The notes beneath the pieces were generated by a model. It was given only the letters and a program-made list of their open reading frames with translations, had not been told where the DNA came from and did not search any database. Shown here in pieces: positions 34,417 through 37,406 of a stretch of DNA of 46,776 bases (positions are counted from its first letter, which is position 1; the number at the start of each line of letters is the position of its first letter). The position numbers were made by a program, and so were the translations under genes. Source of the stretch: Actinomycetes bacterium (GTDB lineage: Bacteria > Actinomycetota > Actinomycetes > JAHEKZ01); NCBI GenBank assembly GCA_024644345.1, contig JAHELE010000008.1:1-46776 (forward strand), in the 5' to 3' direction.

Positions 34417-35327
34417 TGGCGGCTCCGATGTTTCGGGCGGCCACGCTCCGCGTCCGCGTTCCAGCGACGAGCGCCAACCTCGGCCCCGGGTACGACACCT
34501 TCGGCCTGGCTCTTTCGCTGTACGACGAGATCGTGGTCCGGGTGGGTGAGGACGGGTTGGATCTCGACGTGGCCGGGGAAGGGTCCGACAAGGTCCGTAA
34601 GGACTCGCGCAACCTTGTCGTCAAGGCCATGAACAACGCGTTCGACCGGATGGGCGGTCGCCCCCGTGGCCTCGAGGTGCGTTGCTTGAACCGCGTACCT
34701 CAGGGTAGGGGCCTGGGGTCGTCGTCGGCGGCGATCATCGGTGGTCTGGCCGCCGCCCGTGCTCTGACAGTCGGGGGTGATGAGCGGCTGGACGACGAGA
34801 AGCTGCTGGCGGTGGCAACCGAGATGGAAGGGCACCCAGACAACGTGGCGGCAACGTTGTACGGAGGATTCACCATGGCGTGGACCGACGGGGGAGAGGT
34901 TGGGGTGCTCCGAGCCATGCCGCACGCGGACCTGCTGCCGGTCGCTTTCATTCCGGGGACCGAGCTGCGCACCGTCAAGGCCCGCAAGGCGCTACCCGAC
35001 TCGGTGCCGCACGGTGACGCCGCTCTCAACAGCGCACGGGCCGCCTTGCTGGGTCGAGCCGTCACTGATCGACCCGACCTGCTGATGGTGGCCACCGAAG
35101 ACTTCCTGCACCAGGAGTACCGGCGACCGGTGATGCCGCGTTCGTTGGCGCTTCTCGATGAGCTGCGGGCTGCGGGTGTTCCGGCAGTCGTATCGGGCGC
35201 CGGACCCACCGTCCTGGCGCTGACTGATCGCGCCCACGCCCCCGAGATTGCCGAGCAGACACGTCGTGGTTGGCGCACCGAGATCCTCGAGGCCGATCGA
35301 CAGGGTGTCCAGATCCTCTCGCTGTGA
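34416..35327 (+). CDS. thrB: Homoserine kinase
   Basis: A 303-residue GHMP kinase that phosphorylates homoserine for threonine synthase. Visible motifs are PATSANLGPGYDTFGLAL near residue 16, the ATP-binding GRGLGSSSAAIIGGL near 100, and the C-terminal AVVSGAGPTVLALTD. The GTG at 34416 shares its first base with the thrC stop. ATG 34428 (MFRAATLRV) is an alternative. It is the last gene of the hom-thrC-thrB operon; the rho leader follows. Confidence 0.95.
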   Translation: MAAPMFRAATLRVRVPATSANLGPGYDTFGLALSLYDEIVVRVGEDGLDLDVAGEGSDKVRKDSRNLVVKAMNNAFDRMGGRPRGLEVRCLNRVPQGRGLGSSSAAIIGGLAAARALTVGGDERLDDEKLLAVATEMEGHPDNVAATLYGGFTMAWTDGGEVGVLRAMPHADLLPVAFIPGTELRTVKARKALPDSVPHGDAALNSARAALLGRAVTDRPDLLMVATEDFLHQEYRRPVMPRSLALLDELRAAGVPAVVSGAGPTVLALTDRAHAPEIAEQTRRGWRTEILEADRQGVQILSL

Positions 35328-35663
35328 CGTTGTCGTGATCGAATGTGATGAAATCGTTGGGCTTTGCTTCAGGTGACACGGCGACACGCCGACACCGATG
35401 GTGACCCCCAGGAACATCGGGGCGACGCGAGGTGTTACGGTGGCAGCACACCGGGTATCCCGAGTGTCTTCCTCATTCCAGATTCTGATTAACGCTTGAT
35501 GGCACACAGCCTGAAGGCTCAGCTACTGGGATTCCTTCACTCCGGTACCGGCTCCGCCGGCCTCTCTGGCCCCGGCGTTGCATGACCTCCCGACGCGGAA
35601 CAGTGCGTGGGGAATCCCTCCGGCGTCATTTCGGACGCACGGACCATTGTGGAAGGACATCGC
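35328..35663 (+). other. Non-coding 336-base thrB-rho region (rho leader)
   Basis: This is the longest stretch without an annotated protein gene. It holds a small hairpin near the thrB end (CGGCG-ACA-CGCCG at 35379-35391, with outer GGTG/CACC pairs), a possible -10 TACGGT at 35436-35441, a 28-codon ORF at 35499-35585, a hairpin at 35508-35519 (AGCCT/AGGCT) and a longer GC hairpin at 35555-35577 (CGCCGG/CCGGCG). The rho ribosome site follows. The length suggests post-transcriptional control of rho. Confidence 0.55.
35499..35585 (+). CDS. Possible 28-residue rho leader peptide
   Basis: ATG at 35499 to TGA at 35583-35585, beginning MAHSLKAQLLGF and ending in a Gly/Ser/Ala-rich part. An in-frame TAA lies eight bases upstream, so it is not the tail of a longer ORF. 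Both leader hairpins lie inside it, as expected if translation controls folding. No good Shine-Dalgarno sequence is seen. E. coli has an unrelated rho leader peptide (rhoL), so the arrangement has a parallel. Confidence 0.4.
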   Translation: MAHSLKAQLLGFLHSGTGSAGLSGPGVA

Positions 35664-37406
35664 GTGAGCGACACCACCGACACCATGCCAGCCACCGAGG
35701 GCGCATCCGCCCGTCGTAAGGGCCCGGCCCTGTCCGGCATGGTTCTGGCTGAGCTGCAGACCGTTGCGTCTGGGCTCGGCATCACTGGCACCACCCGGAT
35801 GCGCAAGGGTGAGCTGATCGAGGCGATTCGCGAGAAGCAGGGGCAGTCAGCCCCGGCCCGCTCGACCTCCAGCCGCACCGCATCCCGCGACACCGAGCAG
35901 AAGAACGGTGACGCCCCCCAGACGACCACCGAGGCGAGCGCCGCGGCATCATCAGATGCCGAGCCAGCCCAACGGTCCACCAGAACGCGCAACCGCTCCG
36001 GTGCCGACGAGGCCAAGAACGACCGGGCGCCCAAGAGCGGCCAGCCCGAGAAGAACCGCGACCGGCAGGACCGGAACGACAAGAACGACCGGCAGGACCG
36101 GAACGACAAGAACGACCGGCAGGACCGGAACGACCGTGAGGGGTACGAGGGCGGCCGGAGCAGCCGTCGTCGGCGTCGCGGTCGCGACCGCGACCGGTAC
36201 CGCGACCGTGGAGGTCGTGAGCGATTCGGCGAAGCAGAACCACAGGTCGGTCCCGATGACGTTCTGGTTCCCGTGGCCGGCATCGTCGACGTCCTCGACA
36301 GTTATGCCTTCGTCCGTACCTCCGGCTACCTGCCCGGCTCGAACGACGTCTACATCTCGCTGTCCCAGGTGCGCCGCTACGGCCTACGCCGTGGTGACGC
36401 GGTGACAGGGGCCGTCCGTCAGCCGAAAGAGGGCGAGCGACGCGAGAAGTTCAACGCGTTGGTGCGCCTCGACACGATCAACGGGGCGGAACCGGATGCG
36501 GCGAAGGAGCGTCCCGACTTCAGCAAGCTGACGCCTCTGTACCCGCAGGACCGACTGCGCCTGGAGACCGAGACCGGGCTGCTCACCACGCGAGTGATCG
36601 ACCTGGTGGCCCCGATCGGTAAGGGCCAGCGTGGGCTCATCGTCTCGCCGCCCAAGGCCGGAAAGACCATGGTGCTGCAGGCGATCGCCAACGCGATCAC
36701 GACGAACAATCCTGAAGTTCACCTCATGGTGGTTCTCGTCGACGAGCGTCCTGAAGAGGTCACCGACATGCAGCGCACGGTGAAGGGCGAGGTCATTGCC
36801 TCGACCTTCGACCGTCCGGCCGATGACCACACGACGGTCGCCGAGCTGGCCATCGAACGTGCCAAGCGTCTGGTCGAGCTTGGTCACGATGTCGTCATTC
36901 TGCTCGACTCGATGACGCGCCTCGGCCGCGCCTACAACCTGTCGGCGCCTGCGTCCGGACGCATCCTGTCCGGTGGTGTCGACTCCTCAGCCCTGTACCC
37001 ACCGAAGCGCTTCTTCGGGGCAGCCCGCAACATCGAGGACGGCGGCTCGTTGACCATCTTGGCGACCGCCCTGGTCGAAACCGGGTCGAAGATGGACGAG
37101 GTCATCTTCGAGGAGTTCAAGGGCACCGGAAACATGGAGCTCAAGCTCGACCGCAGACTCGCTGACAAGCGGGTGTTCCCGGCCGTCGACGTCGACGCGT
37201 CCGGAACCCGTAAGGAAGAGCTGCTCCTGGCGTCCGATGAGCTCAAGGTGGTCTGGAGCCTGCGCCGAGTGCTGCATGCCCTCGAGTCGCAGCAGGCCCT
37301 CGAGCTGCTGCTGTCCAAGCTGAAAGAGACAACGAGCAACACCGAGTTCCTGCTCCAGGTCCAGAAGACCACACCGGGAGCGATGCTCAGTGAGGACGCC
37401 GACTAG
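35664..37406 (+). CDS. rho: Transcription termination factor Rho (actinobacterial, with insertion)
   Basis: A 580-residue hexameric RNA-dependent ATPase that ends transcription at C-rich sites. The N-terminal SAP-like Rho_N domain ([24 protein letters not shown]) is split from the RNA-binding domain by a disordered, Arg/Asn/Asp/Gln-rich insertion of about 130 residues, typical of actinobacterial Rho. The primary RNA-binding domain starts near [16 protein letters not shown]. The Walker A motif SPPKAGKTM has Lys334, followed by [11 protein letters not shown] and [15 protein letters not shown] 35664 has GGAAGGA upstream; the ORF-track start at 35607 adds 19 residues without support. Confidence 0.95.
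36060..36134 (+). repeat. Perfect 27-nt tandem repeat inside rho
   Basis: Two full identical units of 27 bases (36060-36086, 36087-36113) and a third identical for its first 21 bases. Each codes for DRQDRNDKN. The units are identical even at third codon positions, which points to recent duplication by slippage. It lies within the disordered insertion of Rho. Confidence 0.92.

Follow-up and report, generated by a model that had tools for sequence, protein, structure and literature searches.

How is the level of Rho set in Actinomycetota, where the factor can be essential, as it is in Mycobacterium tuberculosis? A partial literature search turned up no account, and the locus studied here raises the question directly. 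In the window (the whole 46,776-nt stretch of DNA that was analysed), the + strand carries hom-thrC-thrB-rho-rpmE-prfA, with thrC, thrB, rho and rpmE assigned by NCBIfam and hom and prfA recognized in translation. Between the end of thrB at 35327 and the GTG start codon of rho lie 336 nt. The first-pass annotation had drawn attention to a 28-codon open reading frame (ORF) with two hairpins in this gap, and had proposed that translation of the ORF, or the hairpins, couples Rho level to termination in the leader. Comparison with related genomes leads us to read 35328-35663 as the rho promoter followed by an untranslated, conserved and structured 5′-UTR of about 215 nt, whose structure has good support and from which the eye-catching ORF distracts.

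The lineage itself needed correction. The first-pass annotation had named the Nocardioidaceae for comparison, but the window's order comprises, in the genome set compared, four genomes of a single genus, and the genome therefore does not belong to that family. In the Rho tree, too, the Nocardioidaceae rows lie apart from the window, which branches off early among Actinomycetes in an unresolved position and has its shortest path to a Frankiaceae MAG. Two ordinary features of the neighborhood can be recorded here. The N-terminal region of Rho has an NDRQDRNDK-type repetitive stretch (encoded at 36040-36110), which falls inside the low-complexity N-terminal extension usual in actinobacterial Rho. 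Upstream of rpmE lies an L31-Actinobacteria ribosomal-protein leader (RF03158, 37494-37543), which is likewise present in two of the other loci (L040 and L044).

Table 1. Positions in the window and conservation of the features in and next to the rho leader (SD, Shine-Dalgarno)
Feature	Position	Strand	Conservation
Predicted rho promoter, -10 TACGGT (TANNNT, 35436-35441)	35411-35441	+	strongly conserved in four congeners
P1 hairpin, predicted transcript 5′ end, ACACCGGG-TAT-CCCG(A)GTGT	35448-35467	+	paired 4/4, variation in loop only
P2 long-range stem, ATTCCAG 35475-35481 / CTGGGAT 35526-35532	35475-35532	+	paired 4/4
P2 extra pairs CTG/CAG, part of P2	35485-35487 with 35520-35522	+	
28-codon ORF, judged incidental	35499-35585	+	start and stop missing in 3/3 congeners; 2/3 frameshifted
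Anti-SD element TCCTTC, 5′ arm of P3, directly after P2	35533-35538	+	invariant in four leaders
P4 hairpin CGCCGG...CCGGCG	35555-35577	+	paired 4/4; in one genome, G-C replaced by A-U (compensatory)
P5 hairpin TCCCGACGC...GCGTGGGGA	35588-35613	+	91.7% of cells paired; two pairs changed on both sides
P6 hairpin TCCGGCGTC...GACGCACGGA, just 5′ of SD	35619-35643	+	97% of cells paired; no double-sided change
rho SD GAAGGA, 3′ arm of P3	35652-35657	+	invariant in four congeners
P7, TCGC-GTGA-GCGA, rho GTG start codon in loop	35660-35671	+	invariant
rho, transcription termination factor (TIGR00767, E = 2e-198), GTG start at 35664	35664-37406	+	

The 28-codon ORF

The ORF is present as it had been described, running for 28 codons from an ATG (35499-35501) to a TGA (35583-35585), with an in-frame TAA upstream (35490-35492) and two hairpins inside it, AGCC-TGAA-GGCT (35508-35519) and the stem listed as P4; an in-frame TTG at 35496 is a possible alternative start. 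In the leader alignment, the closest relative, at 91% identity, reads ACG where the window has ATG and CGA where it has TGA, and the other two congeners lack both the start and the stop codon, so that the position of the TGA reads CGA, CCA or CTA across the three. A 1-nt insertion (CCGG-T-CTCC) inside the ORF shifts the frame in two of the three congeners, and there is a 33-nt indel in its 5′ part, where one of the two more divergent congeners has an extra 33 nt. The aligned congeners thus keep neither start codon nor frame, the outcome named in advance as refuting the idea that translation of this ORF controls Rho level. No closed ORF is common to all four leaders; an 11-codon GTG ORF occurs in two of the four genomes and is interrupted by a TAA in a third.

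These observations bear on a model in which a 28-codon leader peptide is translated and the ribosome controls the downstream hairpins, and hence Rho-dependent termination in the leader. The ORF on which this model depends does exist in the window, but Markov shuffling of the 215-nt leader yields a closed ORF of 28 codons or more in 52% of cases, a leader ORF conserved with its start and stop, as a uORF attenuator would have, was not found across the three aligned congeners, and no uORF is common to all leaders of either Streptomyces (31 leaders) or Streptosporangiales-type genomes. Taken with the lost codons and shifted frames, this makes the model extremely improbable, and we judge the ORF to be a chance feature that is not conserved. 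The best uORF seen elsewhere, of 49-50 codons in 15 of 18 Streptosporangiales-type leaders, was rejected: its codon-phase entropy is flat (0.74/0.85/0.78) and its frames are broken.

Predicted promoter and RNA fold of the leader

The predicted -10 element lies directly 5′ of hairpin P1. The promoter pattern has a single occurrence in the window, against 0.20 expected, and its -10 reads TACGGT or TAAGGT in three relatives. The same DNA also matches GGAAC-N18-GTT, a sigmaR/ECF-like pattern (35411-35436), with GTT changed to GAT in congener G002 and GGAAC to GGGAC in congener G003. From this position, we infer that transcription starts near 35447, which would give a leader of ~215 nt.

A consensus fold was computed with RNAalifold on four leaders, those of the window and three congeners. 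It scores z = -7.4 on noncoding columns and -5.4 on all columns, and 0/300 column shuffles reach it; these shuffles preserve conservation classes, not dinucleotides. Folds of single sequences beat shuffles only modestly (z from -1.6 to -3.7). Within the named helices 98.1% of cells are paired, as against 32-48% when the partners are slid by 1-3 columns. Four base pairs have changed on both sides, which in a sample of four sequences is suggestive rather than overwhelming as support for the structure. Compensatory changes thus accompany a fold that exceeds its shuffles, as in a conserved structured cis-regulatory leader, although only four sequences are compared.

The helices differ in the kind of support that they receive. 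In P2, a C-G pair is replaced by U-A in both G002 and G003, a switch that separates the two halves of the genus, and two further changes are one-sided; the stem encloses a length-variable segment in which the start of the 28-codon ORF sits. P4 and P6 are each paired across the alignment as listed in Table 1, and each is of low probability in two of the four single-sequence folds. P1 and the helix between the anti-SD element and the SD never vary, and therefore neither carries covariation evidence; the same holds for the invariant P7. The end of the leader that contains P1 folds better than expected, with z = -3.3 for the first 40 alignment columns (1/300 shuffles). Regarding the two hairpins noted within the ORF, the suggestion that they matter survives in half: the leader is a conserved folded RNA to which the second hairpin belongs, with its one compensatory change, whereas the first is not conserved.

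P1 could also be viewed differently, as a GC-rich hairpin that lies 120 nt past the thrB stop, is followed by CUUCCUC, and with its neighbors terminates the thr operon, rho then being transcribed from a promoter further downstream. However, P1 has no U-tract, and the interval 35250-35750 contains no terminator-like site, nor an intrinsic terminator that alternates with an anti-terminator. Promoter-like DNA abuts the hairpin both here and in Streptomyces and Streptosporangiales-type genomes, and conservation runs on through the leader. We consider this arrangement very unlikely and retain P1 as the predicted 5′ end of the rho leader.

A further predicted pairing joins the internal UCCUUC to the SD. 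When the fold excludes the final 20 nt of aligned coding sequence, this pairing has a probability of 0.73-0.96 across the four leaders, and the SD is unpaired with a probability of about 0.2; when those 20 nt are included, the range widens to 0.21-0.96, the window itself falling to 0.21.

How the leader might limit Rho synthesis

We propose that the leader RNA would open with the stable hairpin P1 and then fold through the long-range P2, and that in the resulting closed form the UCCUUC would pair with the SD, so that low translation of rho would be the default state. The leader is predicted to be untranslated, and it is rich in C between P2 and P5, so it could load Rho itself; excess Rho would therefore terminate its own transcript there, a negative feedback. 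The default occlusion of the SD draws on conserved structure, and the proposed self-termination by Rho on known biology; coupling of the leader to Rho level is plausible. We think that the conserved leader RNA probably holds down Rho production, and we put at about even the chance that it does so as a structured untranslated leader that hides the SD and exposes C-rich RNA to Rho, that is, by autoregulation.

Several observations bear on the Rho-dependent half of this proposal. The leader is long, as in Rho-autoregulated rho leaders, with a 336-nt gap of which about 215 nt follow the predicted start. A C-over-G patch at 35517-35596 is in the top 3% of 80-mers in the window, and the C-richness of the whole leader is mild, at the 13% level against a background of the window only. 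Against the proposal, only four related leaders are available.

The main rival is that the leader acts solely on translation or mRNA stability, through SD occlusion and P1 protecting the 5′ end, and that Rho takes no part; the balance may then be set by a trans-acting protein, a small RNA or temperature. The anti-SD helix and P1 are the leader's most invariant elements, and the evidence for Rho loading is weak, both of which suit this explanation. On the other side, Rho is known to regulate its own gene through termination in both E. coli and B. subtilis, and C-over-G leaders recur (32/38 other rho leaders, a count that ignores kinship). We regard a purely translational or stability role as possible, if somewhat unlikely. 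In M. tuberculosis, incomplete transcripts are not globally lengthened by Rho depletion (PMC10937400), and caution is therefore needed in assuming Rho attenuation in Actinomycetota.

Other rho leaders and known systems

In 38 rho loci from other lineages, thrB and rho are separated by 123-527 nt. Two groups were examined, Streptomyces (31 leaders) and a Streptosporangiales-type group (22 leaders, assigned because they resemble named loci of the order). In both, a hairpin of the form GCACC...GGUGC or GCAC...GUGC directly follows the promoter; in Streptomyces it covaries, for example GCACC/GGUGC versus GCAAC/GUUGC. Whole-leader folding beats shuffles in Streptomyces (z = -3.7) and in the Streptosporangiales-type group (z = -3.2), with 0/60 shuffles reaching it in each. 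The window shares with these groups a common layout of promoter, 5′ hairpin, structured leader and SD hairpin. Sequence and structure searches do not extend this likeness: a covariance model built on the first 101 nt (the P1-P2 part) has matches in the four congeners only, among 41 sources, and scans of other rho loci with profiles and covariance models found nothing outside the window's order. Since the P1-P2 model matches no other rho locus, the likeness is one of layout, and homology is not demonstrated. Weak DNA matches in distant genomes were also discarded, four of five not being near rho and the fifth being merely the conserved rho start.

It is tempting, if doubtful, to view actinomycete rho genes as sharing an unnamed class of autoregulatory leader that senses Rho level, its sequence diverged by order and its layout kept, with the window as an order-specific version. 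The layout of this speculative class would be a promoter-proximal hairpin, a structured untranslated leader, and an SD held in a hairpin or under an internal anti-SD.

Two further features of these loci deserve mention. In many Actinomycetes (rho start regions L006-L080), a small hairpin holds the rho SD in its loop or stem, examples being GGG-AAGGA-CCC, GTGGG-AAGGA-CCTCAC and GAGGGGG-AAGGA-TCCTTC (e.g. loci L044, L025, L020); the two arms of one hairpin pair better with each other than arms exchanged among loci do (0/2000), a statistic that ignores kinship. Separately, GGAAT-N18/19-GTT occurs in the rho promoters of 31/31 Streptomyces leaders (L117-L135, L159-L170) and 22/22 Streptosporangiales-type leaders (L137-L158), against a chance expectation of about 4% per leader. 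We take this pattern to be the consensus of sigmaR, the thiol-stress ECF factor, and rho in these two groups may be under oxidative-stress sigma control; for S. coelicolor rho, we found no literature on putative sigmaR control.

Within Actinomycetota, no report of rho leader control was found in a partial literature search, and an earlier description is possible. Among the closest points of comparison are mycobacterial attenuators, which are also hairpin leaders ahead of a regulated gene. Those of ilvB1 and whiB7 depend on uORFs, the ilvB1 uORF being conserved across mycobacteria and its attenuator having an intrinsic terminator (PMC13236596); in contrast, the rho leader here has neither a conserved uORF nor an intrinsic terminator. 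Like L31-Actinobacteria (RF03158), it is a structured leader that precedes a housekeeping gene and is limited to an order or phylum, but it matches no Rfam family in sequence or structure, with no covariance-model hit at the gathering threshold or at E up to 1. Autoregulatory rho leaders are already a known kind; here, the structure is secure and the mechanism is what we infer. A leader RNA that is conserved and carries a predicted SD lock offers a specific, mutable target, and its Streptomyces counterparts open the idea to testing in laboratory strains.

The E. coli rho leader (rhoL region) is long and autoregulated by Rho. The leader described here resembles it in being long and in the negative feedback that Rho is proposed to exert on its own transcript, and differs in having no conserved leader peptide and in its predicted conserved RNA fold and anti-SD, a comparison that draws on the literature and on general knowledge. 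In B. subtilis, rho is reportedly under autogenous regulation (a 1999 study by Ingham et al.); there, as is proposed here, Rho lowers its own expression, and the likeness concerns regulation.
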